Source: Jiella endophytica
Lineage (GTDB): Bacteria; Pseudomonadota; Alphaproteobacteria; Rhizobiales; Rhizobiaceae
DNA length: 64,000 bases
Assembly (NCBI RefSeq): GCF_004519335.1
Contig: NZ_SOZD01000001.1
Span: forward strand, 868,001 to 932,000
Direction of reading: 5' to 3'
Shown: piece by piece, positions 45,858-62,437 of the stretch
Position numbering within the stretch: the first letter of the stretch is position 1
How the letters are laid out: every line of letters starts with the position of its first letter
Position numbers and translations under genes: made by a program
The notes under the pieces: generated by a model
The model's database searches: none
The model's input: the letters and a program-made list of their open reading frames with translations, nothing else
What the model was told of the DNA's origin: nothing

Positions 45858-46641
45858 GGGCGCCCTCCCCGGCAGCGGCAGGCGCATGACGCGGACCGAG
45901 ATAAGCCTCGAGGACGTCCGGATCGTCCTGCACCCTTGCCGTCGGACCGTCATAGATCTTGCGGCCGAAATTGAGGACGACGGCGTGATCGCAGAGGCTG
46001 CGCACGAAACCCATATCGTGCTCGACGACCAGCAGTGTGACGCCGCCATCGGCGATCTCGACGAGGAAATCCCTGAGATTGGCGGTCTCCGACGGGTTGA
46101 GGCCGGCGGCCGGCTCGTCGAGCAGCAACAGCTTCGGCGAGGCGGCGAGCGCCCGCACCACCTCGATCTTCTTGCGGATGCCATAGGGCAGCGTTGCCAC
46201 CACCTCGCAGGGATAGGTGCCGAGCCCCATGCTGGCGAGGAGCGCTTCGGCCTCGACGCGCCATTTCGTCCGACCGAACAGCGACAGCGGCGTCAGCATG
46301 GCGCCAAGGCCGTTCGCCCGCGCCTGCTGGCCGAGCATGATGTTCTCGATGACCGAGAGATGCGGCATCAGCCGGATGTTCTGGAAGCTGCGGGCCATGC
46401 CGAGGCCGATGCGCCGTCGCGATGGCACGGTCGAAATGTCCCGGCCTTCGAGGCGGATGGCGCCGCTGTCCTGGCGATAGACGCCGAAGATCAGGTTGAA
46501 CAGCGTCGTCTTGCCGGCACCGTTCGGGCCGATCAGCGCCGTGCGACCGCCGGCGGCGACATCGAAGCCGACATTGGAAATGACGTCGAGCCCGCCGAAG
46601 CTCTTGGAGACACCGTCGAGGGAAAGGATGGGCGCGGTCAT
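45847..46641 (-). CDS. livG: Branched-chain-type ABC transporter ATP-binding protein (LivG-like)
   Basis: Second ATPase subunit, 264 aa. Walker A is IGPNGAGKTT. The LivG-type degenerate signature is LPYGIRKKIEVVRAL, and Walker B is LLLLDEPAAGLNPSE. The insert MARSFQNIRLMPHLSVIENI is usual for LivG. It overlaps livM by four bases (ATGA) and livF by 11, giving a tightly coupled operon. Confidence 0.94.
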   Translation of the reverse strand: MTAPILSLDGVSKSFGGLDVISNVGFDVAAGGRTALIGPNGAGKTTLFNLIFGVYRQDSGAIRLEGRDISTVPSRRRIGLGMARSFQNIRLMPHLSVIENIMLGQQARANGLGAMLTPLSLFGRTKWRVEAEALLASMGLGTYPCEVVATLPYGIRKKIEVVRALAASPKLLLLDEPAAGLNPSETANLRDFLVEIADGGVTLLVVEHDMGFVRSLCDHAVVLNFGRKIYDGPTARVQDDPDVLEAYLGPRHAPAAAGEGAHAA

Positions 46642-47564
46642 GCGGCCACCTCCCCGCCCGCAAGCCGTGCCCTGCGGCGCGGCCGCAGCTTCTCGGTCAG
46701 GGGGCGGGTGACGAGACCTTCCGGACGGAACACCATCATCAGAACGGTGACGAGGCCGAGGATGACGAAGCGCCAGGAATCGTCCGGCGCGCGCACTTCG
46801 CCCTTTATCCCAAACAGGCTTGCGACCGCCTGCTGGAGGTCCGGCAGGAGAATCCGCAGCGCCTCCGGCAACAGCGTGAAGAAGGCGGCGCCGAAGAGCG
46901 GCCCGAAGGCGGTCTGGGTGCCGCCGAGCAGGACAAAGAGCAGGACGTTGATCGATACGAGCGCGTTGAAGGCCTGGATCTCGACATAGGTGAAGGTGTG
47001 GGCATAGAGCCCGCCGGCCAGACCGCAGAGCCCCGCGCCGATCGCGAAGGCCGCGACCTTCACGCCGCGGATATCGACGCCCATCAGATCGGAGACCACC
47101 TCGTCGTCGTGGACGGCGCGCATGACGAGGCCGAAGCGCGTCGACATCAGAAAGAAGACGAAGAGCGTCACGAGGGCGGCGAGGACGATCGGCACGCCGT
47201 AGTCGACGAAGGCCGGCACCGGCAGCCCCATCGCCCCGCCGAGGGTTTCGGAATTGAGGATCAGCCCGGCGACGACTTCGGCAAAGGCGAAGGTGCCGAG
47301 GACGAGATAGACGCCGCGCAGCCTGAGGATCGGAAAGGCGACCAGAAAGCCGACGACACCGGCGACGAGAATCGCCAGCGGCAGGGTCGCGCCGACCGGC
47401 CAGTCGTAATTGTAGGAGAGATAGGCGGCGACATAGGCGCCGAGCGCCTGGAAGCCGGCGCCGCCGAGGTTGAGCTGACCCGTCGCGACCGGCAGGAAGA
47501 TGCCATAGGCGAAGATGACGTTGATCGCCAGAATCGACAGGATGCCCGACCAGTAGCCGCCCAT
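46638..47564 (-). CDS. livM: Branched-chain-type ABC transporter permease (LivM-like)
   Basis: Inner-membrane permease of 308 aa with about nine to ten helices. ATGQLNLGGAGFQALGAYVA and VSDLMGVDIRGVKVAAFAIG fit the LivM family; the latter is the coupling region to the ATPase. LLGGTQTAFGPLFGAAFFTL is the conserved late segment. It shares one base with livH and overlaps livG by four. Confidence 0.93.
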   Translation of the reverse strand: MGGYWSGILSILAINVIFAYGIFLPVATGQLNLGGAGFQALGAYVAAYLSYNYDWPVGATLPLAILVAGVVGFLVAFPILRLRGVYLVLGTFAFAEVVAGLILNSETLGGAMGLPVPAFVDYGVPIVLAALVTLFVFFLMSTRFGLVMRAVHDDEVVSDLMGVDIRGVKVAAFAIGAGLCGLAGGLYAHTFTYVEIQAFNALVSINVLLFVLLGGTQTAFGPLFGAAFFTLLPEALRILLPDLQQAVASLFGIKGEVRAPDDSWRFVILGLVTVLMMVFRPEGLVTRPLTEKLRPRRRARLAGGEVAA

Positions 47565-48481
47565 CAGAGCTTCCCCTTGCCGATGGCGTTATGGCCGAAA
47601 AGCCCCTGCGGACGGACGAACAGGACCAGCAGCAACAGGCCCCACACGGCGACCTGGACGGTGTCGGCGCCGAAATAGTTGATCGTCATCGTCTCGGTGA
47701 GGCCGACGATCAGCCCGCCGGCCACCGCGCCCCAGATCGAGCCGAGGCCGCCGACCACCATGCCGGCGATCGCCTTGGTGCCGACATCGTCGCCCATCGC
47801 CGGCGAGACCTCGCCGTAGTTGATGGCGAAGAGCACCCCGGCCAGCCCGCAGAGGAGGCCGGTGAGGACGAAGACCACCGGTACGATGCGGTTGACGTCG
47901 ACGCCGAGAATGGTGGCGGCATCGGGGTTTTCCGCGATCGCCCGAAGGCCGCGGCCGATGCGGCTGCGCTTCAGGAGAAGGCTGAGCGCGGCGACGATCG
48001 CCAGCACCGCGACGAGACTGACGATTTGCGGCAGCCGCACGAAGAGCCCGCCGATCTCGACGGTGAGATTGGCCTCGGGACCCGGAAAGCGCTGGGAATC
48101 GGTGCCATAGGCGATGCGGACGAGGTTCTCGATGATCAGGAGAAAGCCGAGCGAGGAGACCAGCGGGATCGCATGCTCGGTCGCGTCGCCGTAGCGGGCC
48201 TTGAGATATCGGAAGGTGAAGCGCTCGACGACGAGCGAGGCGAGGATCGCGACGGCGACCGCGACGAGAAGGGCCAGCGGCCAGGGCAGCGGGCCGGACA
48301 GGCCGAATGGCAGACCGCGCTCGGCGAGCGCCCAACCGATCATGCCGGCCAGCATGAACAGCGTCGGGATGGTGAAGTTGAGGAAGTTCAGGATGCCGAT
48401 GGTCAGCGTGAATGCGACGGCAACGGTCACATAGACGCTGCCGAGCATGACGGAATTGACGAGTTGCTGAAGCAGCAGCAT
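47564..48481 (-). CDS. livH: Branched-chain-type ABC transporter permease (LivH-like)
   Basis: Inner-membrane permease of 305 aa and first gene of the livHMGF set. LLLQQLVNSVMLGSVYVTVA starts the typical LivH fold, and AAAILGVDVNRIV-like residues (DAATILGVDVNRIVPVVFVL) form the ATPase contact. GLGSIWGAVAGGLIVGLTE closes the conserved core. Its promoter must lie in the 307-base region shared with the monooxygenase operon, where a TTGTACACAA box is 22 bases upstream of the start. Confidence 0.93.
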   Translation of the reverse strand: MLLLQQLVNSVMLGSVYVTVAVAFTLTIGILNFLNFTIPTLFMLAGMIGWALAERGLPFGLSGPLPWPLALLVAVAVAILASLVVERFTFRYLKARYGDATEHAIPLVSSLGFLLIIENLVRIAYGTDSQRFPGPEANLTVEIGGLFVRLPQIVSLVAVLAIVAALSLLLKRSRIGRGLRAIAENPDAATILGVDVNRIVPVVFVLTGLLCGLAGVLFAINYGEVSPAMGDDVGTKAIAGMVVGGLGSIWGAVAGGLIVGLTETMTINYFGADTVQVAVWGLLLLVLFVRPQGLFGHNAIGKGKL

Positions 48482-48788
48482 CAGCGGGTTCCGCCCGTAC
48501 CATTGTACACAAATTGATCAGACTGCCTTGCCGTTGAGCAATAGGTCCGGACAAGCTGGCAGCCCTGCGGGACGAACCCCAGGCGGCCTTGCCGCCGACA
48601 ACGCAAAACCCCTATCATCGCGGGCATAGCGACATTCTCCATCACGGGTCATCGCCGACATCCGGCGCGGATGTCTGATTATTTGACCAGCCCTAATCAG
48701 AAATCATTTGTTGATTTGACCGGATGTTTTGTACACAATCCGAGTCATCGAGTGGCTTGTCAAGTGGATTGCCGGAGGTGCGGGGACG
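48482..48788. promoter_or_regulatory. Divergent control region of the liv transporter and catabolic operon 1, with two TTGTACACAA boxes
   Basis: TTGTACACAA occurs at 48503-48512 (ATTGTACACAAAT in context) near livH and at 48729-48738 (TTTTGTACACAAT) near the monooxygenase gene, same orientation and 226 bases apart. The box is close to the TTGTATACAA-type palindromes bound by GntR regulators of the FadR/FCD group, and such a regulator is encoded in the rightward operon (51756-52478). The rest of the interval shows an AT-richer stretch around 48680-48740 and no gene. Confidence 0.5.
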
Positions 48789-49991
48789 ATGTCTGACAAT
48801 GCGGAGCGCGTGATCGTCGTGGGCGCCGGCCCGGTCGGGCTGGTGGCCGCCGCCTGCCTCGGCAGCGCCGGGATCCCGGTCACCGTGATCGAGACCAGCG
48901 ACGCCCTGCCGAAGGATCTTCGCGCTTCCACCTTCCACCCGCCGACGCTCGACATGCTCGACCGCTTCGGCCTGTCGAGAAAGCTCGTCGCCCGCGGTCT
49001 CGTCTGCCCGAAATGGCAGTTCCGCGACCGAAAGGAGGGGGTCATCGCCGAATTCGACCTCGGCCGCCTGGAAGGTGAGACCAACCACCCCTACCGGCTG
49101 CAATGCGAGCAGTGGAAGCTGACCGAGCATCTGCGCGAGATGTTCGAGGCGAGCGATGCGGTGGAGCTGCTCTACGGCGTCGAGGGCCTGTCGGTCGAAC
49201 AGTCCGACGACGGCGTGACGCTGAGCGTGCGCCATCCGGACGGCTCGACCGGAGAGATGAAGGCGCGCTACCTGATCGCCTGCGACGGCGCCCGCAGCAA
49301 TGTCCGCAAATCCCTCGGCATTGCCTTCGATGGCCTGACCATTCCGGAGATCTTCCTGTCGATGTCGACGGAGTTCGCCTTCGACGAGGCGATCCCGGAT
49401 CTCGCGCCGATCGCCTATCTCACCGATCCGAGCGAATGGGCGGTGCTCTTGCGCACGCCCTCGCTCTGGCGGGTGCTGCTGCCCACCGATCCCGGCCTCA
49501 CCGATGCCGAGATCAAGGCCCCGGAGGTGATGGAGGCCCGGCTGCAGAAGCTCTGTCCCAAGCCCGGCGCCTACGACGTCGTCCATGCGACCGCCTACCG
49601 GGTGCATCAGCGCGTCGCCGCCTCCTATGTCGCCGGCCGGGTGTTCCTTGCCGGCGATTCCGCCCATCTCAACAATCCGCTCGGCGGCATGGGCATGAAT
49701 GGCGGCATCCACGACGCGGTGAACCTCACCGACAAGCTCGCCGCCGTCTGGCACGGCGCGCCGCTGGAGACGCTCGGCCGCTACGAGCGCCAGCGCCGCA
49801 AGGTGGCGATCGACACGGTGCAGGCGCAGTCGCTGCGCAACCGGGCGATCATGGCCGAGAACGACCCGGAAGCCCGCAGGGCCCATCACGACGACCTGCG
49901 CGCCATCGCCGCCGATCCTGAGCGCCACAAGGCCTATGTCATGCGCTCGTCGATGCTGCAGTCGCTGAAGGAGCTCGAAGAGGTCGCCTGA
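48789..49991 (+). CDS. FAD-dependent class A monooxygenase
   Basis: Flavoprotein hydroxylase of 400 aa, first gene of catabolic operon 1. The FAD fingerprints are all present: VIVVGAGPVGLVAAACLGSA (dinucleotide fold), the DG motif in LIACDGARSNVRKSLGI, and the GD motif in VFLAGDSAHLNNPLGGMGMN. This group adds an OH to (hetero)aromatic rings using NAD(P)H and oxygen, and a few members also open N-heterocyclic rings. Its opening resembles the MhpA/hydroxyphenylpropionate hydroxylase branch, though it is shorter at the C-terminus. The 20-codon extension to 48729 lacks a ribosome site and is rejected. Substrate unknown. Confidence 0.88.
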   Translation: MSDNAERVIVVGAGPVGLVAAACLGSAGIPVTVIETSDALPKDLRASTFHPPTLDMLDRFGLSRKLVARGLVCPKWQFRDRKEGVIAEFDLGRLEGETNHPYRLQCEQWKLTEHLREMFEASDAVELLYGVEGLSVEQSDDGVTLSVRHPDGSTGEMKARYLIACDGARSNVRKSLGIAFDGLTIPEIFLSMSTEFAFDEAIPDLAPIAYLTDPSEWAVLLRTPSLWRVLLPTDPGLTDAEIKAPEVMEARLQKLCPKPGAYDVVHATAYRVHQRVAASYVAGRVFLAGDSAHLNNPLGGMGMNGGIHDAVNLTDKLAAVWHGAPLETLGRYERQRRKVAIDTVQAQSLRNRAIMAENDPEARRAHHDDLRAIAADPERHKAYVMRSSMLQSLKELEEVA

Positions 49992-50051
49992 CCGCCCGGC
50001 CGTCTTCCGGCTCCGGCCTCATTCCACCCTCGTCTCGAAGGATCCTGAACA

Positions 50052-50798
50052 ATGACGGACAGCCTCGGCTATCGAATGAAATTCGGCGTCATCGCGCCCT
50101 CGACCAACACCTCGGTGCAGCCGGAATTCGACGCCATGCGCCCGGTCGGCGTCACCAACCACTTCTCACGCATCATCATCCCGGACGATCCGGTGAATTC
50201 CGACGAGGACTTCAACGAACTCGTCATGCGCATCCGCGCCGCGACCATGGACGCGATCGACGCGGTGAAGACCTGCTCGCCCGGCGCAATGATCATGGGC
50301 ATGTCGGCCGAGACCTTCTGGGACGGCAAGGAGCGCGCCGATACGCTCAAGGCCCAGGTGGAGGAACGCGCCGGCATGAACGTCGCGATGGGCTCGGATG
50401 CCTGCCAGGCGGCGCTGTCGAAGTTCGGCGACATCAAGCGCATCGCCGTCGTCACCCCCTACATGCCGATCGGCGACGAACAGGTCCGCAAGTTCTTTAC
50501 CGACTGCGGCTACGAGGTCGTCCAGGTGCTCGGGCTGAAATGCAAGAGCCCGATGCTGATCGCCCACGAGACCGAGCAGACGCTGCGCGACGCCATCATC
50601 GCGGTGAACGACCCGTCGGTGGAGGCGATCGTCCAGGCCGGCACCAATCTCGCCATGGCCCGGGTCGGCGCCATCGCCGAGTTCTGGCTGGACAAGCCGG
50701 TGATCGCCATCAACACCGCGACCTACTGGCATGCGCTCAGGATGAACGGCATCGAGGACAAGGTGCAGGGCTTCGGCTCGCTCCTCACCCATCACTGA
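50052..50798 (+). CDS. Asp/Glu racemase-superfamily (maleate isomerase/arylmalonate decarboxylase-like) protein lacking both catalytic cysteines
   Basis: Soluble protein of 248 aa with the two-domain Asp/Glu racemase fold. KFGVIAPSTNTSVQPEFDAM is the family N-terminus. At the two active-site positions, where isomerases and racemases have Cys, it has MIMGMSAETFWDG (residues 81-92) and IVQAGTNLAMA (194-204), so neither Cys is present. The first site resembles the Gly-Thr-Ser oxyanion loop of arylmalonate decarboxylase (MGTSxSF type), but that enzyme keeps the second Cys. A proton-transfer isomerase is therefore unlikely; a decarboxylase, hydrolase or binding role is open. The Cys-containing paralogue at 55094 makes the contrast clear. 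Confidence 0.82.
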   Translation: MTDSLGYRMKFGVIAPSTNTSVQPEFDAMRPVGVTNHFSRIIIPDDPVNSDEDFNELVMRIRAATMDAIDAVKTCSPGAMIMGMSAETFWDGKERADTLKAQVEERAGMNVAMGSDACQAALSKFGDIKRIAVVTPYMPIGDEQVRKFFTDCGYEVVQVLGLKCKSPMLIAHETEQTLRDAIIAVNDPSVEAIVQAGTNLAMARVGAIAEFWLDKPVIAINTATYWHALRMNGIEDKVQGFGSLLTHH

Positions 50799-50814
50799 GC
50801 GGCGGGCAGATCCC

Positions 50815-51762
50815 ATGCGTTACGACTACGTCTCCTTCCCCGCCCGCAAGCCGCTCGTCTGGCCGAACGGCAAGCGGCTCGCCGTCATCCTGACGATCAA
50901 TTTCGAATATTGGGACAAGGTCCAGGATTCCGAAAAGCCCTACTATCCCGGCGGCCCCGGCATCGTCGGCGGCAATCTGCCCGGCAATGTCTATGACAAT
51001 CCCAACTTCACTTGGCGCGAATACGGCCAAAGGGTCGGCGTCTGGCGGATGCTCGACGTCTTCGACCAGGAGAACGTTCCGGCGAGCTGCACCATGAACG
51101 CCAAGATGGCGGTCGAGCGGCCGGAGGTGATCCGTGCCGCAATCGACCGGGGCTGGGAGATCGTCGCCCACAACTACGTCCAGGACGAGCTTCTCACCGA
51201 CTACATGTTCGACGAGGCGGCCGAGCGCGACGTCATCCGCCGGACCCTCGACATCTACGCGGAGAGCGTCGGCAGGAAGGCCAGAGGCTGGCTGTCGAGC
51301 TCGCTCCGCTCGACGCTGAACACCATCGACATCCTCGCCGAGGAAGGCCTTCTGTTCATCACCGACCTTCTCAACGACGACCAGCCCTATCTGGTCGAGA
51401 CGCGCTCAGGAAAACCCATGGTGTCGGTCTCCTATACCTCCGAGGTCAACGACTTCTCGTTCCTGCGCCAGGGGCTGACGGCGGAAACCGGCCTTGAGAT
51501 GTTCAAGGAGGGCTTCGACTGGCTGCGGGAGGAAAGCCGGTCCAGCGGCCGATTCATGAATATCGGCCTGCATCCGCATGTCATCGGCCAGCCCTTCCGG
51601 ATCCGGGCGCTGCGCGACTTCATCCGCTATGCCAAACAGTTCGACGACGTCTGGTTCGCGACACGGGAGGAGATCGCGGCGTGGTATCTCGACCACCATC
51701 ACGAGCACATCGATCCGCGCGGCCAGGCGGCCGCCGCGGGCCGGGGGAGCGTCTCATGCTGA
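50815..51762 (+). CDS. Polysaccharide-deacetylase-fold hydrolase (PuuE/cyclic-amide hydrolase-like)
   Basis: Soluble NodB-fold protein of 315 aa without a signal peptide, so a cell-wall substrate is unlikely. AVILTINFEYWDKVQ, EYGQRVGVWRMLDVF, MAVERPEVIRAAIDRGWEIV followed by AHNYVQDE, and FMNIGLHPHVIGQPFR match the PuuE allantoinase/peptidoglycan-deacetylase-like branch that hydrolyses cyclic amides or amides in small molecules. It lies 16 bases after the racemase-family gene and overlaps the following GntR gene, so it belongs to the catabolic operon. A role opening a cyclic amide or imide intermediate is inference. Confidence 0.85.
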   Translation: MRYDYVSFPARKPLVWPNGKRLAVILTINFEYWDKVQDSEKPYYPGGPGIVGGNLPGNVYDNPNFTWREYGQRVGVWRMLDVFDQENVPASCTMNAKMAVERPEVIRAAIDRGWEIVAHNYVQDELLTDYMFDEAAERDVIRRTLDIYAESVGRKARGWLSSSLRSTLNTIDILAEEGLLFITDLLNDDQPYLVETRSGKPMVSVSYTSEVNDFSFLRQGLTAETGLEMFKEGFDWLREESRSSGRFMNIGLHPHVIGQPFRIRALRDFIRYAKQFDDVWFATREEIAAWYLDHHHEHIDPRGQAAAAGRGSVSC

Positions 51763-52478
51763 GGCTGGTCGAGCCGGGCGACCCCGGCGGCCGGCGGTCG
51801 CTGGCCGAGGAGCTCGACGGCGAAGGCATCGAACGGCCGGCCGAGCGCGCCTATCAGGGGATCCGCCGGGCGATCCTGCGCGGCGAACTTCCGGCCGGAT
51901 CGCATCTCGGCGAGGAGGCGCTGGCGAAGATGACGGGCACCAGCCGCACGCCGGTGCGCGAGGCGCTGCGCCGGCTGGTCGGCGAGGGTCTCGCCCGGGC
52001 CAACCAGCGGCATCGCTTCGTCGCTGACTTCTCCTTCGAGGAAGTCTCAATCGTCTTCGAGATCCGCGCGAGGCTCGAGAGCTACGCGGCGCGCATCGCC
52101 GCCGCCGCCGTCACTGCCGAGGAGCTCGAACAATTGGAGCGGATCGTCGATGCGATCGACGAGATCGGCCCCGGCGCCGGCGATGCCGGTCTGAAGCGCT
52201 TCGTCGCGCTGAACACCCGCTTCCATGCCGCGATCATCGGCGCCACACACTCCACCCAGATGCAGACGCTCAGCGCCCAGGCGCTGTCCCTGCCGCTCGA
52301 ACTCATCAAGCAGTTCGTCTGGGAGCAGCGGGTCAACATCGCCCGGTCCAACGACCAGCACCGCGACATCGTCGCCGCCCTGCGGGCCCGCAACGCCGAC
52401 TGGGCCGAAGCTGCGATGAGCGGCCATATCCTGTCGACGCGCCCGGCGCCGAAGCCGCAGGGCGGCAGCGGGCGATGA
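51756..52478 (+). CDS. GntR-family regulator, FadR/FCD subgroup
   Basis: Transcription factor of 240 aa from ATG 51756 (GGAG upstream, overlapping the deacetylase gene). The winged helix is AYQGIRRAILRGELPAGSHL through TSRTPVREALRRLVGEGLAR. The C-terminal all-helical FCD domain (IVFEIRARLESYAARIAA, FHAAIIGATHS, DQHRDIVAALRARNADWAEA) binds small organic acids through conserved His and Asp residues. It is encoded inside the operon it probably controls. The TTGTACACAA boxes in the 48482-48788 region are its best candidate operators. Confidence 0.9.
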   Translation: MLRLVEPGDPGGRRSLAEELDGEGIERPAERAYQGIRRAILRGELPAGSHLGEEALAKMTGTSRTPVREALRRLVGEGLARANQRHRFVADFSFEEVSIVFEIRARLESYAARIAAAAVTAEELEQLERIVDAIDEIGPGAGDAGLKRFVALNTRFHAAIIGATHSTQMQTLSAQALSLPLELIKQFVWEQRVNIARSNDQHRDIVAALRARNADWAEAAMSGHILSTRPAPKPQGGSGR

Positions 52479-53299
52479 GCAGCCATCCGTCGCTCGCCGG
52501 CCGTGTCGTCGTCGTCACCGGCAGCTCGCGCGGCCTCGGCCGCGAAATGGCGCTGGAGCTTGCAGGTCACGGCGCGCTGCTGGTCATCACCGGCGCCGCC
52601 GAGACGCCGGAACTCGCGGCCACGGCCGAGGAGATCGGCGCGGACCGGGCGCTGGCGCTCGCCGCCGACGTCTGCGACCCCGCCGCCGCCGAAGCTGTCG
52701 TCGCGGCGGCCGAAGCGCGCTTCGGCCGGGTCGACGTCCTCGTCAACAATGCCGGGCGCGGCATGCGGCTCGTCAGCGAGACCTTCAACAGCCAGCCGAC
52801 GAACTTCTGGGAGGTCTCGCCCGAGGCCTGGAAGACGATCGTCGACATCAATGTCAACGGCGCCTTCAACATGGCGAGGGCCGCAACGCCGGGGATGATC
52901 TCCCGCGGCTTCGGCAGGATCGTCAATATCTCGACCTCGGACATCACCATGGTGCGCCGCGGCTACTCGCCCTACGGCCCATCCAAGGCGGCGCTCGAGG
53001 CGGCATCGCGGGTCTGGGCCGCCGATCTCGCCGGCACCGGCGTCACCGTCAATGTCTATCTGCCGGGCGGCGCGGCAGATACCGACCTGTTGCCGCCCGG
53101 ACCCGGCAAGAAGGGCGCCGACGGCAACCTCCTGCCGGCCGCGATCATGCGGCGGGCAATCTGCTGGCTCGCCTCGGACGCTTCGAGCGCCGTCACCGGC
53201 GCACGCTTCATCGCGCGAAACTGGGACCCGGCGCTGCCGGACGACGAAGCCGCCGCGGCGGCCCGCATTGCCGGCGTCGATCGCCCGGCGATCATGTGA
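52475..53299 (+). CDS. Short-chain dehydrogenase/reductase
   Basis: NAD(P)-dependent oxidoreductase of 274 aa. The cofactor loop is VVVVTGSSRGLGREMAL, NNAG is present at VDVLVNNAGRG, and the catalytic Ser and YxxxK lie in ISTSD and YSPYGPSKAALEA. The protein overlaps the GntR gene by four bases. The C-terminus is slightly extended (RIAGVDRPAIM). It presumably oxidises an alcohol or reduces a ketone intermediate of operon 1. Confidence 0.92.
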   Translation: MSSHPSLAGRVVVVTGSSRGLGREMALELAGHGALLVITGAAETPELAATAEEIGADRALALAADVCDPAAAEAVVAAAEARFGRVDVLVNNAGRGMRLVSETFNSQPTNFWEVSPEAWKTIVDINVNGAFNMARAATPGMISRGFGRIVNISTSDITMVRRGYSPYGPSKAALEAASRVWAADLAGTGVTVNVYLPGGAADTDLLPPGPGKKGADGNLLPAAIMRRAICWLASDASSAVTGARFIARNWDPALPDDEAAAAARIAGVDRPAIM

Positions 53300-53307
53300 G
53301 GAGAACG

Positions 53308-54183
53308 ATGCTCAATCTCGGCGCCGCGACCCTCGAGAAGATCGTCGATATCGATCCCTTCGTCCTGCCTGCCGATCTGCTGTTGCCCGGCTGCGACCTC
53401 CGAGAACTCGCCAACCACGCGGATCTCCTGGCGCCAGATCATGTCGACTTCGCCGCGCCGGCAATCCTCCTTAGCCTGCACAGCTTCGTCCTTCGGATCG
53501 CCGGGCGCATCGTCCTGATCGACAGCTGCGTCGGCGAGGACAAGCCGCGCCCCCGCCGCGCCGACTGGCACCAACGCAAGGGCACCGGTTATCTCGACCG
53601 CCTCGGGGCGGCGGGGCTGACGCCGGCCGATGTCGACATCGTCCTATGCACCCATCTTCATGCCGATCACGTCGGCTGGAACACAAAACGCGAGGACGGC
53701 CGCTGGGTGCCGACCTTTCCGAATGCCCGTTATGTCATCGGCCGTCGCGAGCTCGACCACTGGGAAGCGGCCGAGCGCGAGGCGCCCGGCAGCCACAATC
53801 ATGGTGCCTTTGCCGACAGCGTGCTGCCGGTGATCGAGGCCGGGCTGGTCGAGCGGGTCGATGACGGTGTCTCGCTGTTTTCAGGCGCCGAGATCGTGCC
53901 TCTCGCCGGCCATTCGCCGGGGCAGATCGGCCTCGACCTTCGCTCTCGCGACGGCCATCACGCGCTGTTCTGCGGCGACGCGATCCACTCGCCGGTCCAG
54001 GTGTTCCGTCCGCACTGGAGCAGCCGCTTCTGTTTCGACAAGGCCGCTGCGGGACGGCTGCGCCAGTCCCTTCTCGAACGCGCGGCAGAGGACGATACGC
54101 TCCTTCTGCCCGCCCATCTTCGCGGCGCCTGCGGCATGCGGATCGTGCCGGACAGAGATGGCTTCCGCCCGCTGATGGTGTGA
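53308..54183 (+). CDS. Metallo-beta-lactamase-fold hydrolase (lactonase-like)
   Basis: Soluble zinc hydrolase of 291 aa from ATG 53308 (GAGGAG upstream); a GTG at 53296 overlapping the SDR stop is less likely. The metal motif is THLHADHVGW (His116, His118, Asp120, His121), followed by LAGHSPGQIGLDLRS and FCGDAIHSPVQVF, as in dinuclear zinc lactonases such as AHL lactonase and 4-pyridoxolactonase. There is no export signal. As the last gene of operon 1 it may hydrolyse a lactone or ester intermediate. It converges with the GntR/UTRA regulator. Confidence 0.88.
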   Translation: MLNLGAATLEKIVDIDPFVLPADLLLPGCDLRELANHADLLAPDHVDFAAPAILLSLHSFVLRIAGRIVLIDSCVGEDKPRPRRADWHQRKGTGYLDRLGAAGLTPADVDIVLCTHLHADHVGWNTKREDGRWVPTFPNARYVIGRRELDHWEAAEREAPGSHNHGAFADSVLPVIEAGLVERVDDGVSLFSGAEIVPLAGHSPGQIGLDLRSRDGHHALFCGDAIHSPVQVFRPHWSSRFCFDKAAAGRLRQSLLERAAEDDTLLLPAHLRGACGMRIVPDRDGFRPLMV

Positions 54184-54189
54184 GAGGTC

Positions 54190-54978
54190 TCACTCCTGCG
54201 GCTGGCGGCCGCGGCGGATGCGCATCTTGTAGGTCATCTGGTCGGCCGAGTGCCAGTTGAACGAGGCGATCAGCACGCCGGCGGCGGTGACGTAGCGGCG
54301 CAGCAGCTGCAGCGACAACGCGCCGTTCGGGAGGCCAAGCTGGCGGGAGATCGCCTGCGGCATCACCAAAGCGCGGATCTCCTGCTGTGTCTCCTCGATC
54401 GCCTCGCGCGAATGCCTCTCGAGAAGATCGAAAAACGGCCCCTGATGGTCGGAAAACTGCGGGATCAGCGCCTCGAAACGCTCCGGCACGAAGCTCTCGA
54501 TATAGCAGATCGGCCGCCCGCCCGGCCCCGTCCAGCGGACGCCGTCGACGCGGATCCAGCGCTCCCCGGCCCTGCCGCCGACCCGCTCCGCCAGTTCGGC
54601 GTCGAGGCTCACCGGCTGATGGCCGAGGACCACCATGTAGGTGTCGACGGCGACCTGGAAGAGCTCCTGCAGCGACTCGAAGGACTGGTAGTAGCGCACC
54701 TGCGGCCGCGCCGAGACGACCCGTGTCCCCATGCCCTGGCGGCGCTCGACATACCCGTCCTCGGTGAGGCAGCGCAGCGCCTCGCGCACGGTGAAGCGGC
54801 TGGTGGCAAATTCCTGGCCGAGCTCGGTCTCCGTCGGCATCAGTGCCCCGACCGGATAGGTGCCCGCCTCGATCCGGCCGGCGAGTTCGCGGTGGATACG
54901 CAGATAGCGCGGCGCCGCCTCGTCGGGCGAAATCGCCGCCGCTTCCGCCGGTTCGCTCGGTTTCACTGTCCGGGCCAT
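54190..54978 (-). CDS. GntR-family regulator, HutC/UTRA subgroup
   Basis: Transcription factor of about 262 aa. The N-terminal winged helix is YLRIHRELAGRIEAGTYPVG with TSRFTVREALRCLTEDGYVE. The C-terminal UTRA effector domain includes ERWIRVDGVRWTGPGGRPIC and YIESFVPERFEALIP. ATG 54978 is chosen (GGAG eight bases upstream); GTG 55026 would run into the operator-like site at 55028. It is divergent from catabolic operon 2, its obvious target, and a matching site at 40134 suggests a wider regulon. Confidence 0.9.
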   Translation of the reverse strand: MARTVKPSEPAEAAAISPDEAAPRYLRIHRELAGRIEAGTYPVGALMPTETELGQEFATSRFTVREALRCLTEDGYVERRQGMGTRVVSARPQVRYYQSFESLQELFQVAVDTYMVVLGHQPVSLDAELAERVGGRAGERWIRVDGVRWTGPGGRPICYIESFVPERFEALIPQFSDHQGPFFDLLERHSREAIEETQQEIRALVMPQAISRQLGLPNGALSLQLLRRYVTAAGVLIASFNWHSADQMTYKMRIRRGRQPQE

Positions 54979-55027
54979 CGCCTCGCTCTCCGCGCCTTCA
55001 TCCTGTCGCCTGCTCTGCCTCGCCACG

Positions 55028-55043
55028 ATTTATCTGGACAAAT
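55028..55043. promoter_or_regulatory. Operator-like palindrome between GntR/UTRA gene and operon 2
   Basis: ATTTATCTGGACAAAT is a 16-bp palindrome with one arm mismatch (consensus ATTTGTC-NN-GACAAAT). It is placed to control both divergent promoters and allow autoregulation. Related sites lie at 40134 and 39989. Confidence 0.5.
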
Positions 55044-55093
55044 ACGCAAGTGGCGTGGCAACTGGTCTTTAACAACCGTCAGCGTCCAAGCCA

Positions 55094-55840
55094 ATGCCCT
55101 CGCGTCACCAATCGACCTATTCCACCCGCGCCAAGCTCGGGCTGATCGTGCCGCCGACCAACACCGTCAACGAGGCGGAATGGGTCCGCATGGCGCCCGA
55201 GGGCGTCACCATCCACAGCCATCGGGTGCGGCTTCACGCCGATACGGCGAGCCCTGCCGGCCAGGCGGCCCTGCTGAGCGATCTCGACGAAGCCGTCGGC
55301 CTCGTCGCCCAGACCGGCGCCGATGCCGTCGCCTATGCCTGCACAGCCGGGTCGATGGTGACGCCGGCAGCGAGCCTGCAGGACGAACTCACCGAGCGCA
55401 CCGGAACGCCCTGCGTCACCACTTCGGCGGCGATCGTCGCCGCGCTTTCAGCACTCGGCGCCAGGCGCATCTCGGTCGCGACCCCCTATGCCGAAACGCT
55501 CAATGCCCATGAGGCGGAGTTCCTCGCCGTTCACGGCTTCGACGTCCTGTCGATCGCCGGCCTCGGCATCGGCGCCGGTGGCCCGTCGGAATATCCGCGG
55601 ATCGCCAGAACGCCGCTCGACGCCGTCGCGGATCATGCGCGAAACGCCTTCTCGCCGGAGAGCGACGCCCTTCTGATCGCCTGCACCGACTTTCCCACCC
55701 TGCCGCTCGTCGCCCGGCTCGAAGCCGAACTCGGCGTTCCGGTGGTGACGTCCAACCAGGCGACCTTCTGGTCGATGCTGCGCGTTGCCGGGATCGACGA
55801 CCGCTTCGAACGTTTCGGCCGGCTGCTCGCCGAGCATTGA
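55094..55840 (+). CDS. Maleate cis-trans isomerase-like protein (Asp/Glu racemase superfamily)
   Basis: Soluble protein of 248 aa. KLGLIVPPTNTVNEAEW is the typical opening, and both active-site cysteines are present: Cys83 in VAYACTAGSMV and Cys197 in LLIACTDFPTLP. This supports a proton-transfer isomerase or racemase. Maleate isomerase is a reasonable reading because an amidase of the maleamate/carbamoylsarcosine type follows in the same operon, but other 2-substituted dicarboxylates are possible. The end overlaps the region before the lyase gene by a few bases. First gene of catabolic operon 2. Confidence 0.85.
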   Translation: MPSRHQSTYSTRAKLGLIVPPTNTVNEAEWVRMAPEGVTIHSHRVRLHADTASPAGQAALLSDLDEAVGLVAQTGADAVAYACTAGSMVTPAASLQDELTERTGTPCVTTSAAIVAALSALGARRISVATPYAETLNAHEAEFLAVHGFDVLSIAGLGIGAGGPSEYPRIARTPLDAVADHARNAFSPESDALLIACTDFPTLPLVARLEAELGVPVVTSNQATFWSMLRVAGIDDRFERFGRLLAEH

Positions 55841-55869
55841 ATTTCAAACAAAGGGAGAAGACCCGCCCC

Positions 55870-56751
55870 ATGGCCGACAAAGCCCTGAAACAAGCCCTTG
55901 CCGCCGGCACCTTCGTCACCGCCCCCGGCGTGTTCGAACTGATCTCCGCGATGATCGCCGACACGATGGGGTTCAAGGCGCTGTATGTCACCGGCTACGG
56001 GACGGTCGCCTCGCATCTCGGCCTGCCCGATGCCGGCCTTGCCACCTACACCGACATGCTCGGGCGGATCGCCACCATCGTCGAGCGGACGAGGACACCG
56101 GTGATCGCCGATGCCGACACCGGCTATGGCGGCCTCCTCAATGTCCGCCACACGGTGCGGGGCTACGAGCAGGCGGGCGTTTCGGCGATCCAGCTGGAGG
56201 ACCAGGAATTTCCCAAGAAATGCGGCCATACGCCGAACCGCCGGGTGATCCCGCTCAAGGACATGCTGCAGAAGATCGAGGTCGCCGTCGACAGCCGGAG
56301 GAGCGACGACTTCCTGATCATCGCCCGCACCGACTCGCGCACCTCGCTCGGCATCGACGAGGCGATCCGCCGCGGCAAGGCCTTCGCCAAGGCGGGCGCC
56401 GACATCGTCTTCGTGGAATCGCCGGAGAGCGAAGAGGAGATGCAGCGGGTCTGCGAGGCGATCGACGCGCCGCTGCTCGCCAACATGGTCAATGGCGGGC
56501 GCACGCCGCTGCTCTCGGCCGAGCGGCTGCAGTCGCTCGGCTATGCGATCGGCATCCACCCTGCCGTCGGCTTCCTGGCGATGGGCGCTGCGCTGAAGCA
56601 TGCCTATGCCGATCTTGCCGAGAATGGCGAGACGACGAGCGCCGTCGAACTCCACGACTTCTCCCGCTTCAACGAGCTTCTCGGCTTTCCGGAAGTGTGG
56701 GAGTTCGAGAAGCGCTACGCCCGGCAGGAAGCCGCCAACGCGGCCGAATGA
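55870..56751 (+). CDS. Isocitrate lyase/PEP mutase-family lyase
   Basis: TIM-barrel enzyme of 293 aa from ATG 55870 (GGGAGAAG about ten bases upstream). DADTGYGGLLNVRHTVRGYE binds Mg2+ and substrate, and the catalytic loop KKCGH (Cys118 central) is intact, pointing to a C-C bond-cleaving lyase such as methylisocitrate or 2,3-dimethylmalate lyase rather than a phosphonate mutase. IARTDSRTSLGIDEAIRRG is also typical. In this operon it would split a substituted malate-type intermediate into central metabolites. An 11-codon upstream extension is possible but improbable. Confidence 0.88.
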   Translation: MADKALKQALAAGTFVTAPGVFELISAMIADTMGFKALYVTGYGTVASHLGLPDAGLATYTDMLGRIATIVERTRTPVIADADTGYGGLLNVRHTVRGYEQAGVSAIQLEDQEFPKKCGHTPNRRVIPLKDMLQKIEVAVDSRRSDDFLIIARTDSRTSLGIDEAIRRGKAFAKAGADIVFVESPESEEEMQRVCEAIDAPLLANMVNGGRTPLLSAERLQSLGYAIGIHPAVGFLAMGAALKHAYADLAENGETTSAVELHDFSRFNELLGFPEVWEFEKRYARQEAANAAE

Positions 56752-56777
56752 GGCGAAAGAGACGAGGAGCCAGCGCT

Positions 56778-57428
56778 TTGACAGACGACCTTTCCGAGAA
56801 CTATGCGAAGGCCTACGGCCACAAGGCCGGCTTCGGCAAACGCCCGGCGCTGATCCTGATCGATTTCGCCCATGCCTATTTCGACCCGGACTGCGATCTT
56901 TATGCCGGCGTCGACGCGGCGCTCGCCTCGGCGCTGCGGGTGCGAGAGGCGGCTCACGCCGCCCACGTGCCGGTCGTGCTCACCGAGGTGACCTATCAAA
57001 AAGGCGGCAGGAACGGTGGCCGCTTCTTCGAAAAGGCGATGCCGCTGAAAGCCTTCGTCAAGGGCGAGCGGACCGCCGCCTTTGCCGACGGGCTGGTGCC
57101 GCGAGAGGACGAGATCATCGTCTCCAAGCAGTATCCGTCAGCCTTCTTCGGCACCTCCCTCGCCTCCACCCTCACCGCCGGCGGCCATGACAGCGTCATC
57201 CTGACAGGCCTCACCACATCGGGCTGCGTCCGGGCGAGCTGCGTCGACGCGATGTCCCACGGCTTCACCACCATCGTCGTCGCCGATGCCTGCGGCGACA
57301 GGCATCCGGCGCCCCACGAGGCCAACCTGTTCGACATGAACGCCAAATATGCCGACGTCGTCTCGGAGACGGAGATCCTCGCTTATCTGAAGACACTCTC
57401 CGCCAGCCGGGCTGAGGCCCGCGCGTGA
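56778..57428 (+). CDS. Isochorismatase-superfamily amidohydrolase (N-carbamoylsarcosine/maleamate amidase-like)
   Basis: Cysteine hydrolase of 216 aa starting at TTG 56778 (GAGGAG ten bases upstream). The triad is visible: Asp29 (LILIDFAHAYF), Lys117 (VSKQYPSAFF) and Cys150 (TTSGCVRASCVDAMSHGF). The ending GDRHPAPHEANLFDMNAKYA closely follows N-carbamoylsarcosine amidases and maleamate amidases, not isochorismatases proper. It should hydrolyse a primary amide or carbamoyl group and release ammonia. Next to a maleate-isomerase-like gene, maleamate is a plausible substrate, but this is inference. Frame upstream to 55785 is a shadow. Confidence 0.88.
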   Translation: MTDDLSENYAKAYGHKAGFGKRPALILIDFAHAYFDPDCDLYAGVDAALASALRVREAAHAAHVPVVLTEVTYQKGGRNGGRFFEKAMPLKAFVKGERTAAFADGLVPREDEIIVSKQYPSAFFGTSLASTLTAGGHDSVILTGLTTSGCVRASCVDAMSHGFTTIVVADACGDRHPAPHEANLFDMNAKYADVVSETEILAYLKTLSASRAEARA

Positions 57429-58168
57429 GCGGCTTTTCGACGATCGCCATCCTTGGCGCTGCCGGCGGCATCGGCCGCCGGCTTCTCTCCGAGCTCAGGG
57501 ATCGCGGCCACGAGACGATCGCGCTCGACCTGCCGGCCTCCCTCGAGCGGCATCGGCTGGAAGGCCGCAGCATCGCCATCGACATTCTTGACGAAGCCTC
57601 GATCGAAAACGCCTTCGGGGAACTCGCAGGCGACGGCGAAGGGCTCGACGGCTTCGTCAATCTCGCCGGCTACAATGCCAGGCTGACGCCGCTCGCCGCG
57701 ATGGACACAGGCTATTTCGACGACGTCATCGCCGGCAATCTGCGCGGCGCCTTCCTCGCCGCACGTGCCGCAAAGCCGCTGCTCGAGCGCGGCCGCAACG
57801 CCAGCCTGGTGATGGTTTCCTCCGGCCTCGCCGCTCATGTGCGGCCCGGCTACGGGGCCTATTCGGCGGCGAAAGCGGCGATTGTCGCGATGACCAAGAC
57901 GCTGGCGCTGGAATGGGCGCCGACGGTCCGGGTGAATGCCGTGGCGCCGGGCCTCGTCGACACGGCCTTTCTGCGCGGCGGCACGGGACGGTCCGACGAG
58001 GACGGGGCGAGCGTGGTCGATCTCGACGCCTATCGCGGGATGACGCCGCTCGGCCGGATCGCTTTGCCGGACGACGTCACCGGGCCGGTCCGCTTCCTGC
58101 TCGGCGAAGACAGCCGCTTCATGACCGGCCAGGTGCTCTGGGTGAATGGCGGCGGCTACATGCCGTGA
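57425..58168 (+). CDS. Short-chain dehydrogenase/reductase
   Basis: NAD(P)-dependent oxidoreductase of 247 aa. The nucleotide loop is AILGAAGGIGRRLLSEL. NLAG replaces the usual NNAG, the catalytic Ser is in VMVSSGLAAH, and YSAAKAAIVAMTKTLALEW supplies Tyr and Lys. The ending GQVLWVNGGGYMP is classical. GTG start overlaps the amidase stop (GTGA at 57425). Last gene of operon 2, distinct in sequence from the SDR at 52475. Confidence 0.92.
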   Translation: MSGFSTIAILGAAGGIGRRLLSELRDRGHETIALDLPASLERHRLEGRSIAIDILDEASIENAFGELAGDGEGLDGFVNLAGYNARLTPLAAMDTGYFDDVIAGNLRGAFLAARAAKPLLERGRNASLVMVSSGLAAHVRPGYGAYSAAKAAIVAMTKTLALEWAPTVRVNAVAPGLVDTAFLRGGTGRSDEDGASVVDLDAYRGMTPLGRIALPDDVTGPVRFLLGEDSRFMTGQVLWVNGGGYMP

Positions 58169-58216: not shown

Positions 58217-58651
58217 TCACTGCCGGTCGGCGAGGATGCCGCGCAGCAGCTCGCTCAGCCGGGCCGTCTCGCTGTCGCTGAGGCCCTCCGTGACGACCCG
58301 ACGCTCGCTCTCCACCAGCGGCGAGAGCTCGCCGAAATGCGCCCGCCCCTTGTCGGAGAGAAAGACCAGGACGCGGCGGCGGTCGCGGGCATCCGGCGCG
58401 CGGTAGACGAGACCGGCGGCGACCATCCGGTCGACGATCTTGGTCAGCGTCGGCAGATCGACGAAGACCGACGGCGCCAGCTCGCCCATCGCCTGCCCGT
58501 CCTGGCGCATCAGGCTCGCCAGCAGGCGGTATTGCTCGATCCGCGCCCCGGCCGGCTTGAGGCGTGCCTCGACCGCGGTGTCCAACCTCCGGTTGACCCC
58601 GGCAATGAGCTCCGAGAGGCCGTGAGGGTCCTGGTCGGGCGAGGTTTTCAT
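58217..58651 (-). CDS. MarR-family transcriptional regulator
   Basis: Winged-helix regulator of 144 aa. The recognition region is ELAPSVFVDLPTLTKIVDRM, and the wing has DARDRRRVLVFLSDKGR, the MarR hallmark. GGAGG lies seven bases before ATG 58651. It is divergent from the AmiC-like gene across 342 bases. MarR proteins commonly sense aromatic or phenolic acids. A much longer open frame in this reading frame, reaching 60076, is the shadow of the binding-protein gene. Confidence 0.92.
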   Translation of the reverse strand: MKTSPDQDPHGLSELIAGVNRRLDTAVEARLKPAGARIEQYRLLASLMRQDGQAMGELAPSVFVDLPTLTKIVDRMVAAGLVYRAPDARDRRRVLVFLSDKGRAHFGELSPLVESERRVVTEGLSDSETARLSELLRGILADRQ

Positions 58652-58993
58652 GGAATCCTCCGAGATACTGGATTTTTCATATATTCCGGCGATCCCCCGA
58701 AAGGCAATTTCGAATTGTTCGCCTCGGGCCTTCGTCCCCATGACAGGCGAGAGCTGCCGATCACGGTCGGCGACCCGCCGGCTCAGATCTGGTCCTGACC
58801 GACGCTGATCCTGTTGGCAGCGATGCCCATGATTCGCGCATGTCTTCGGCGCCGCAGCCGTGAAAGCACCTTGGCGGCGGCTTTCGGCCGGCCCGGCGGC
58901 TTGCGCCGCAACTGGCACGCGACATGCAGGCGTTGTTCGAATGGGTCGTGACGGAGCCGGAATCCAACGGATCGCCGGCGCTGGGAGTAGCGT
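58652..58993. promoter_or_regulatory. Divergent region between MarR gene and AmiC-like gene
   Basis: The interval is 342 bases long. The part next to MarR is AT-rich (TTTTTCATATATTCC near 58670-58685) and contains CAATTTCGAATTG (58705-58717), a 5-bp inverted repeat around TCG that could be a MarR operator. The remaining 250 bases are GC-rich with no convincing gene or RNA. Confidence 0.35.
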
Positions 58994-60031
58994 ATGCGAC
59001 GTATCGGGCTGTTGATTCAACAAAGCGGACCGGCTGGCATCTGGGCCCCCTCGGCGCAGGCCTGCGCCCGGCTGGCCGTGGAGGAGATCAACGTCGTCTG
59101 CGGCCTGCTCGGTCACGACGTCGACCTCACCGTGATGGACGCCGGCGTCAGCGCCGCAAGCGCCGCCGAGGCGGTGGACTTCTCCATCGACATCGACGAG
59201 ATCGACGCGCTCGTTGGGATGATGCCGAGCTACCAGCGGGCGGCCGTCTCCTCGGCGGTCGGCGGCCGAATCCCCTTCATCTACACCCCGCAATTCGAGG
59301 GGCTGGAGCGCGACCGGGCGATCGTCACCGTCGGCGAAACCTCGCGTGAGCTGCTCGAGCCGGGGATCGACTGGCTGTGGGAAAACAAGGGCGCCCGGCG
59401 CTATTTCCTCGTCGGCAACGACTATGTCTGGCCGCGCGAGACCTTCGCGACGGCGAGCCGCATCGTCGCCGACAAGGGCGGCGAAATCGTCGGCGAGCGG
59501 CTCGTCCCCTTCGGCTATGACGACTACGACCGGCTGTTCGCCGAGATCCGGGCGAGCCGGGCCGATGTGGTGGTGCCCTATTTCCTCGGCGCCGAGGCCG
59601 TGTCCTTCAACCGCAGCTTCGCCGAGGTCGGCCTCGCGGCGAAGCACCTGCGCTTCTCGTCGGCGATCGACGAGACGGTGATCTACGGCATCGGGCCGGA
59701 CGCGACGGAGAACCTCTATCTCTCCTCGGGCTATTTCGCCTGCCTCGATTCCCGCAACAACCGCTCCTTCCTCGAGCGCTACCACACCCGCTTCGGCGAG
59801 ACGCCGCCGCCGGTCAACGCCTTCGGCCAATCCTGCTACGAGGGGATCTACTGTCTGCTGGCGCTTGCCGAGGCGGCCGGCGATCTTGCGGTTCCGGCGG
59901 TCGTCGATCGCCTCGGCCGCACCTGCCAGCGTTACAGCGCGCGCGGATCGAGCGCTCCCTTCGTCGCCGGCGAGCGCCAGCCTATCCATGTCGCGGCGGT
60001 CGACGGCATGGACCTCACCCTGCTGCGCTGA
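58994..60031 (+). CDS. AmiC-like periplasmic-binding-fold protein without signal peptide (predicted cytosolic ligand sensor)
   Basis: Type I binding-protein fold of 345 aa close to AmiC/UrtA. GLLIQQSGPAGIWAPSAQAC opens the first lobe; GERLVPFGYDDYDRLFAEIR and NRSFAEVGLAAKHLRFSS are typical later segments. There is no signal peptide, and an in-frame TAG directly precedes CGT-ATG, so none was missed. GGGAG precedes the start. AmiC in Pseudomonas is a cytosolic amide sensor that restrains the antiterminator AmiR. No AmiR/ANTAR gene is visible here, so the partner is unknown. The adjacent exported binding protein is a relative with different signals. Confidence 0.82.
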   Translation: MRRIGLLIQQSGPAGIWAPSAQACARLAVEEINVVCGLLGHDVDLTVMDAGVSAASAAEAVDFSIDIDEIDALVGMMPSYQRAAVSSAVGGRIPFIYTPQFEGLERDRAIVTVGETSRELLEPGIDWLWENKGARRYFLVGNDYVWPRETFATASRIVADKGGEIVGERLVPFGYDDYDRLFAEIRASRADVVVPYFLGAEAVSFNRSFAEVGLAAKHLRFSSAIDETVIYGIGPDATENLYLSSGYFACLDSRNNRSFLERYHTRFGETPPPVNAFGQSCYEGIYCLLALAEAAGDLAVPAVVDRLGRTCQRYSARGSSAPFVAGERQPIHVAAVDGMDLTLLR

Positions 60032-60075
60032 GGCAGCAGCTATCGACCACGCTGCGGCAATCCTGCTGCGGCGCA

Positions 60076-60101
60076 AAATTTTGTTTGCAATTTCAAAATT
60101 T
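60076..60101. promoter_or_regulatory. Inverted repeat upstream of the amide/urea-type binding-protein gene
   Basis: AAATTTTG (60076-60083) and CAAAATTT (60094-60101) are perfect 8-bp arms separated by 10 bases, in an AT-rich patch 50 bases before ATG 60151. The CAATTTC word inside it recurs at 58705 near the MarR gene. It may be an operator or promoter element. Confidence 0.4.
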
Positions 60102-60150
60102 GTGTTTTCAAATATCCTCCGTACCGCGATCGGTCATGAAGGGGTCCGCA

Positions 60151-62435: not shown

Positions 62436-62437
62436 GC

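Follow-up and report, generated by a model that had tools for sequence, protein, structure and literature searches.

The 64,000-nucleotide stretch of the Jiella endophytica genome analyzed here, hereafter the window (contig C11 of genome G000 in our sample, with relatives that include Jiella pelagia, L002, at 74-94% protein identity), carries at positions 38253-58168 about 19 genes that probably form one catabolic island reaching left to 38253. Its core consists of operon 1 (A-B-C-D-E-F, 48789-54183) and operon 2 (H-I-J-K, 55094-58168), with gene G lying divergently between both. The features are as follows.

38253-39998, minus strand: thiamine pyrophosphate (TPP)-dependent enzyme, a probable outer member of the island (NCBIfam equivalog PRK08327, 574.6 bits, cut-off 456)
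40233-41198, plus strand: TAXI-type solute-binding protein of a tripartite ATP-independent periplasmic (TRAP) transporter (TIGR02122, 157.7 bits)
41506-43467, minus strand: fused TRAP permease (TIGR02123, 516 bits)
43764-44963, minus strand: Q, HAAT-type ATP-binding cassette (ABC) solute-binding protein (profile match; start picked by eye)
45117-48481, minus strand: R, S, T and U, a pair of ABC ATPases with a pair of permeases, oriented divergently to operon 1 (open reading frames, ORFs)
48789-49991, plus strand: A, FAD_binding_3 flavin monooxygenase (FMO; Pfam)
50052-50798, plus strand: B, protein of the arylmalonate decarboxylase (AMDase)/maleate isomerase fold that has neither catalytic cysteine (Pfam, alignment, predicted structure)
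50815-51762, plus strand: C, PuuE/cyclic-imide-hydrolase-like protein of the polysaccharide-deacetylase fold (profile and structure-relative matches)
51756-52478, plus strand: D, GntR/FCD regulator (PF00392 and PF07729)
52475-53299, plus strand: E, short-chain dehydrogenase (SDR) 1 (PF00106; TGSSRGLG and YGPSK)
53308-54183, plus strand: F, lactonase-like hydrolase of the metallo-beta-lactamase fold (PF00753; HLHADH)
54190-55026, minus strand: G, GntR/UTRA (HutC-like) regulator (PF00392 and PF07702)
55094-55840, plus strand: H, maleate-isomerase/AMDase-like protein with both cysteines (Pfam, residues)
55870-56751, plus strand: I, C-C lyase of the phosphoenolpyruvate (PEP) mutase/isocitrate lyase superfamily with KKCGH (Pfam, residues)
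56778-57428, plus strand: J, isochorismatase-fold amidohydrolase with a TTG start (Pfam; D29, K117, C150)
57425-58168, plus strand: K, SDR 2 (PF13561)

The sequence-only reading of this DNA had described two operons and two GntR regulators at 48789-58168, and this description holds: the ORFs of the named genes are open at those places and match the expected families in Pfam and NCBIfam. At C/D, D/E and J/K the stop codon of one gene overlaps the start of the next, as would fit operons. The TAXI ORF spans 40002-41198, its ATG start having been picked by eye, and R-U were likewise named by eye, without a profile search. Examination of the binding protein Q gave no hint of its ligand, and the GC content shows no clear step at the island.

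The gene set recurs in other genomes. With B as query we found 116 relatives in genome records, and the best 80 loci of these were used; 36 carry A and 44 do not. Some loci are short (7 of the 36 A-bearing loci are under 20 kb), so that presence is undercounted. Counting a locus as having both operons when it holds A, E and three or more of the genes G, H, I, J and K, we find the combination in 21 of the 80 B-anchored loci, all alphaproteobacterial by record title, so that the two operons do co-occur elsewhere. The 36 A-bearing loci contain H in 30 cases, E in 27, I and G in 23 each, J in 21, D in 20 and K in 19, together with the TRAP permease in 22, the TAXI protein in 21, the ABC binding protein in 16, an aldehyde dehydrogenase (ALDH) in 13, LeuC in 6 and LeuD in 4. 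The lactonase F and the deacetylase-fold protein C, both listed by the sequence-only reading as parts of the enzyme set, are present in the window but recur in only 17 of these loci each, compared with 30 for H and 27 for E. Among the 44 loci without A, by comparison, J occurs in 4, I in 2, and H, G, LeuC and LeuD in one each, and C, D, E, F and K in none. Linkage of H, I, J, E and C with A is therefore more than chance. Homologues of R-U were matched in 15-16 of 17 island loci hand-chosen from the 80, and 8 of 22 other island loci hold a homologue of the TPP enzyme (at least 50% identity), several of these loci being truncated at their ends.

Co-occurrence at the level of whole genomes points in the same direction. 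In a sample of 289 genomes of the class, searched at strict E-values, B is present in 16 genomes, I in 32 and C in 13; leaving out the window's own genome, 9 genomes have both B and C against 0.62 expected, 8 have B with I (1.61 expected) and 8 have C with I (1.29 expected), drawn from four, four and five families, respectively, with relatedness uncorrected. Moreover, in genomes G280 and G149 the contig with B also carries I, at a distance of about 86 and 93 kb, and C is on a different contig, so close linkage cannot account for all of the co-occurrence. Other split cases, such as G200, could stem from draft contigs. Within the family of J. endophytica (121 genomes), 5 genomes carry B, 3 carry H and 23 carry I, so that the island is patchy. 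Compact versions also exist: L110 (7725-15997) and L111 (3439-12789), both from one genus, pack A, B, C, I, LeuC and LeuD into about 9 kb, and L094 groups A, B, C, I and J with an SDR. We claim no special conservation of B from its median identity of 92.3% in 17 of the 80 loci, since B was both the query and the ranking key; in L085, the identity of B (75%) does not exceed that of C (78%) or J (76%).

Operator-like motifs link the parts of the island, as judged from their placement. These motifs were first seen by eye and counted afterwards, and the expectations given were calculated after the fact. Three stand in intergenic regions of the core.

48503-48512: operator-like TTGTACACAA, ABC side (motif count)
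48729-48738: operator-like TTGTACACAA, operon 1 side (motif count)
55030-55041, plus strand: operator-like TTATCTGGACAA in the G-H gap (motif count)

The two TTGTACACAA copies, which flank the divergent region between the ABC genes and operon 1, are the only ones in the 64 kb when at most one mismatch is allowed (0.17 expected). The wider form TTGTNNACAA occurs in 12 of 17 U-A regions, and these regions carry 17 of the 19 copies found across 515 kb from 23 sources. A TTGTATGGACAA motif stands at the start of the TPP enzyme gene, and TTRTNNNGACAA has three sites in the window (four matches, one site being palindromic; 0.10 expected), all within the island: at the TPP start, in the TAXI promoter and in the G-H gap. 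TNYGGACAW is present in 19 of 21 G-H gaps, where about 0.014 would be expected per 130 bp, although these gaps are orthologous and the motif was picked after viewing them; the narrower motif form is by itself unexceptional in the window, with 2 copies against 0.43 expected and 8 of 100 shuffles reaching 2. TTGTACACAA and the GGACAAATA site are candidate targets of D and G. D and G are likely the regulators of the island, and the distribution of the motifs suggests that D acts on the ABC genes and operon 1, whose partner G would act on the TPP enzyme gene, the TAXI-TRAP genes and operon 2, a pairing of protein with motif that we infer.

The most unusual part of the island is the branch of cysteine-less proteins to which B belongs. 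The sequence-only reading had named one isomerase in its title, without singling out B; there are two proteins of the arylmalonate decarboxylase family, B and H, and B has neither cysteine. The overall fold is clear: B scores 56.2 bits against PF17645 (cut-off 25.9), its AlphaFold2 model (pLDDT 88.6) superimposes on maleate isomerases with Foldseek TM values of 0.82-0.87, and the 28 best Foldseek rows comprise maleate isomerases, arylmalonate decarboxylases and two unnamed structures, 4ix1 and 2dgd, with allantoin and hydantoin racemases as distant fold relatives. Positions 84 and 197, which we take to be the catalytic cysteine sites of the family, are Met or Ile and Gly, respectively, in all 82 rows of the alignment (the 80 loci plus the window counted twice), and ten further plasmid homologues also have cysteine at neither position (10/10). 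Cysteine does occur at the adjoining position 196 in 2 of the 82 rows and in L084. Within the arylmalonate decarboxylase/maleate isomerase/hydantoin racemase superfamily, which provides the fold of B and the family of H, B and these homologues thus form a cysteine-less branch.

Residues E87, T88, Q195, T198 and N199 of B are invariant in the 82 rows. In 10 wider homologues, Q195, G197 and N199 are retained without exception; T198 is kept by 9 of them and E87 by only 6. E87 is replaced by Asp in two IgiC-type proteins and by Val in L090 and L094, and was rejected as a likely catalytic residue; the locus L094 has A, C, I and J and yet Val at this position, so that the role of B in the pathway does not depend on E87. 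This leaves Q195, G197 and N199 as candidate catalytic residues on the basis of conservation. B adjoins A directly on its 3' side. Elsewhere it accompanies HyuA and HyuB at 4 of the 44 A-less loci (Pfam having been run on L045 only), and it also occurs with amidases, a cupin, an oxygenase-like protein, a CoA-transferase, an HMGL-like lyase and an isochorismatase, and a homologue adjoins a gene annotated rutA. Our guess is that B hydrolyzes, isomerizes or decarboxylates a cyclic amide.

Two further families occur near B or its cysteine-less relatives. One, k24, has 279 residues (L083 9020-9859, with homologues in L060, L070, L072, L073, L074, L078 and L088), lies near a cysteine-less AMDase-like gene in other, alternative islands and gives no match in Pfam; from an HxD...H pattern seen by eye it is possibly a 2-oxoglutarate (2OG)/Fe oxygenase that replaces the flavin hydroxylase. 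The other, ORF cluster k29 (L041, L049, L066 and L086), is a methyltransferase family as judged from the one member scanned.

B also has relatives of a different purpose. B has a homologue in IgiC, from the indigoidine operon (42-46% identity in H17-H26), which lies on the same cysteine-less branch, as do the IgiC-type proteins at 8001-8750 of both L091 and L092, which belong to indigoidine-like operons. The order of genes in the Leisingera operon of L091 agrees with the published table of the indigoidine operon (PMC5014874), and igiB and igiC are reported to be implicated in indigoidine production (PMC12826045). IgiC, unlike the island of B, belongs to pigment biosynthesis.

The remaining enzymes are closer to characterized families. 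The nearest solved relatives of A are PnpA (230 bits) and HspB (160 bits), and its GAGPVG and GDSAH motifs are present. The best matches of C are 1z7a (147 bits) and PuuE 3cl6 (135 bits), while those of F are lactonases and organophosphorus hydrolases. C is not the allantoinase of this genome: it scores 157.7 bits against the PuuE equivalog TIGR03212, whose cut-off is 424.6, and a PuuE of 526 bits is encoded elsewhere (contig C21). H keeps both catalytic cysteines (C83 and C197 in 31 of 31 homologues of at least 50% identity) and falls below the NCBIfam equivalog cut-offs for EutA and AMDase; its isomerase activity on maleate or a substituted maleate is a prediction. J matches N-carbamoylsarcosine amidohydrolase and 3ot4, and it retains Asp-Lys-Cys, which we take to be the catalytic triad of isochorismatase-fold cysteine amidohydrolases (D29 and K117 in 26 of 26 and C150 in 25 of 25 homologues covering the position). 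The ALDH of A-bearing loci is nearest the HpaE model, below its cut-off.

For I, C118 of KKCGH is present in 25 of 25 homologues, and the score against the methylisocitrate lyase PrpB equivalog TIGR02317 is 269.5 bits, below the cut-off of 354.4. Leu236 is found in 24 of 24 homologues where methylisocitrate lyase has the Arg of its SAFRAMN stretch, presumably a functional residue of that enzyme, and I shares GG with petal death protein where methylisocitrate lyases have FG; KKCGH is also common to I and petal death protein. By score, two chains of the methylisocitrate lyase type rank slightly above petal death protein as relatives of I. GG and Leu236 favor a 2-alkylmalate over a tricarboxylate substrate, the methylisocitrate type being disfavored by Leu236, and I may be a 2-alkylmalate lyase of the petal death protein/dimethylmalate lyase type. 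The amidase and the malate-type C-C lyase of the sequence-only reading have their expected residues intact.

A maleate-type product cannot enter lyase I directly, and so a hydration step would be needed. LeuC and/or LeuD are encoded near I in L088, L095, L097, L100, L101, L110, L111 and L116 (the genome of L116, G280, has B and C elsewhere). LeuCD is not a constant member of the island, LeuC being present in 6 of the 36 A-bearing loci; the window genome has two LeuC genes on contig C23, with 57% and 54% identity to the island type, which may take part here. L101 has I, J, LeuC and LeuD beside HyuA/HyuB-like proteins (named by eye), with A, B and C not in the stretch. Occurrence of I with J and/or LeuCD in genomes that lack B means that operon 2 is partly a general end module. 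In L096 (8191-13606), close relatives of I (75%) and J (68%) lie with a luciferase-like monooxygenase and an amidase, possibly another front end.

Taken together, gene content and linkage lead us to propose, with a probability of about 0.55, that the whole of 38253-58168 serves as a single island for the catabolism of a nitrogen-containing ring compound such as a hydroxypyridine, pyridone, cyclic imide or lactam. In this proposal, the compound would be taken up by the ABC and TAXI-TRAP systems and its ring hydroxylated by A, after which B and the SDR E would convert the hydroxylated ring to a cyclic amide or imide. C would then open the ring by hydrolysis, with F available for a lactone intermediate, and J would strip the amide nitrogen to give a substituted maleic acid. 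H might carry out cis-trans isomerization, and/or a LeuCD-type enzyme, which some related islands encode and which might otherwise come from the host, might hydrate this product. Finally, cleavage of the alkyl-malate by I would yield a 2-oxo acid together with a small carboxylate, and the carbon would thereby enter central metabolism. A cyclic-amide theme is favored, by analogy, by the presence of B with HyuA/HyuB and by its homologue IgiC. More tentatively, and at somewhat less than an even chance, this would be an undescribed aerobic bacterial route in which a hydroxylated N-heterocycle is turned into a cyclic imide and hydrolyzed without a dioxygenase. B would then catalyze a novel reaction, and the carbon would pass through alkyl-maleate and alkyl-malate to a 2-oxo acid; alkyl-maleimides from chlorophyll or haem breakdown are one guess for the substrate.

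Several observations weigh against the proposal of a single island pathway. We infer every substrate and the order of the steps, including the role of B. C is missing in 19 of the 36 A-bearing loci, so that ring opening by C cannot be general, and LeuC is absent from the island in the window and from 30 of the 36. No fewer than 44 of the 80 B loci are without A, and among the 16 B-bearing genomes of the class 7 are without I and 6 without C at the thresholds used. Genome G020, from the same genus, has B, G, I and J, with H absent at E 1e-40. I occurs with J and/or LeuCD in genomes without B (L095-L097, L100 and L101; B absent at E 1e-30). The Fisher values for co-occurrence in the 289-genome sample are uncorrected for relatedness, and the operator-like motifs were chosen by eye ahead of the count.

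The same distribution of I could mean that two separate pathways merely lie next to each other, operon 1 and the ABC transporter serving one compound and operon 2 being a general alkyl-maleamate/alkyl-maleate module. This arrangement, which we consider rather unlikely, would explain the close relatives of I with J and/or LeuC(D) in those five B-less genomes (A and C having been left unsearched there), and the two halves of the island do differ in operator-like motif and in regulator type. It accounts poorly, however, for the fact that H, the first gene of operon 2, is present in 30 of 36 loci with A but in 1 of 44 without, for the compact clusters of L110, L111 and L094 in which genes of both operons stand together, and for the genome-wide co-occurrence of B, C and I. 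The idea of one route drawing on both operons, as put forward in the sequence-only reading, is supported by their joint presence in 21 of 80 loci, and is weakened by loci in which I, accompanied by J and/or LeuCD, stands without operon 1. An undescribed catabolic route is supported in outline, with two linked pathways being possible.

Bacterial degradation of nicotinate and nicotine through 2,5-dihydroxypyridine employs NicC/HspB, NicX, NicF and maleate isomerase, and the island resembles this route in having a flavin hydroxylase, an isochorismatase-fold amidase and a maleate-isomerase-like enzyme. Indeed, HspB, which we take to make 2,5-dihydroxypyridine, is the second-best solved relative of A, J matches 3ot4, presumably NicF, and H matches maleate isomerases. 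A variant of this maleamate pathway with its ring-cleaving dioxygenase encoded elsewhere in the genome is nevertheless very unlikely in our judgment. No ring-cleaving dioxygenase is found among A-K, the TPP enzyme, TAXI, TRAP and Q by profile, or among R-U by eye, as the sequence-only reading had it, and the window genome has no match to PF02073, the M29-type fold that we assume for NicX, whereas 4 of 14 control genomes, none of them picked as a nicotinate degrader, do match; an M29-type enzyme elsewhere in the genome was rejected on this result. Moreover, fumarate would not need lyase I, and C, B and the two SDRs have no place in that pathway. A nitrogen-free lactone or aromatic acid route, in which J would act on another bond and C would be a deacetylase or esterase, is also improbable: F is lactonase-like, A resembles p-nitrophenol and polyketide hydroxylases, and the HpaE-like ALDH (below cut-off) stands in 13 of the 36 A-bearing loci, but J keeps Asp-Lys-Cys in the members tested, C is PuuE-like, and the partners of B at other loci include HyuAB, amidases and isochorismatases. 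The ureide logic that had also been suggested, with FMO, B and C as presumed counterparts of HpxO, HpxA and PuuE in an urate/allantoin-like pathway, appeals to the PuuE-like character of C and to the allantoin and hydantoin racemases among the distant relatives of B. We regard it as most improbable, because C falls far below the PuuE cut-off while a PuuE above it exists elsewhere in the genome, B has neither racemase cysteine, and ureides need neither LeuCD nor lyase I.

No standard gene set of a known pathway is recognized at the locus, and we found no published description of this gene set in the literature searched, most subscription journals lying outside that search. By analogy, the nearest described logic for the proposed island pathway is that of the Aspergillus nidulans hxn genes. 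There, a hydroxy-glutarimide is opened by HxnM, a cyclic imide hydrolase whose relationship to PuuE runs by way of HpPgdA, and then processed by an amide hydrolase (PMC9304392). The hxn set and the island share flavin monooxygenases, an SDR, a PuuE-related protein and a separate amide hydrolase, and in hxn, as in the route proposed here, the ring would be opened by hydrolysis without a dioxygenase. Unlike the island, hxn is fungal, ends in alpha-hydroxyglutarate and, as described, has no cysteine-less AMDase fold, no counterpart of H, no PEP mutase-type lyase and no LeuCD. This likeness is one of working rather than of membership, C being only a fold relative.

The end of the proposed pathway resembles another system. 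Anaerobic nicotinate fermentation ends with dimethylmaleate hydratase and 2,3-dimethylmalate lyase, and related islands similarly place a LeuCD-type hydratase near a lyase of the PEP mutase family. The island differs in its flavin front end and, in the window, in the absence of the hydratase, and the substrate of its lyase is a prediction only. The contrast with the 2,5-dihydroxypyridine route, by comparison, lies in the dioxygenase, which was not found, and in the additional C, B, SDRs and C-C lyase.

Although catabolic islands as such are common, this one recurs, scattered, in at least 21 alphaproteobacterial loci, and its parts are found elsewhere with other oxygenases (the putative 2OG/Fe oxygenase and a luciferase-type oxygenase); no substrate assigned to it turned up in our searches. 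If the proposal is correct, diverse bacteria consume an unrecognized nitrogen compound, and attention falls on the cysteine-less branch of the arylmalonate decarboxylase superfamily, whose chemistry is directly testable.

Some minor observations concern individual loci and the edges of the island. In J. pelagia L002, gene I, between H (15055) and J (16765), gives no single match over 60% of its length, although the pieces jointly pass; this irregularity may be a broken gene or a sequencing error. The L110 cluster also holds a cytochrome c and a beta-lactamase-fold protein. To the right of the island, 58217-63517 encodes a second HAAT-type ABC system and a MarR-type regulator (L-P, named by eye). 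This right-hand block looks separate: L is matched in 1 of the 17 chosen loci (38% identity), N in 1 of 17 (26%), and M, O and P in none, a weak test in that the loci stop about 1-4 kb past K. At the left end, a tRNA-Asp gene at 37850-37926 borders the island just before the TPP enzyme and is a possible integration point.

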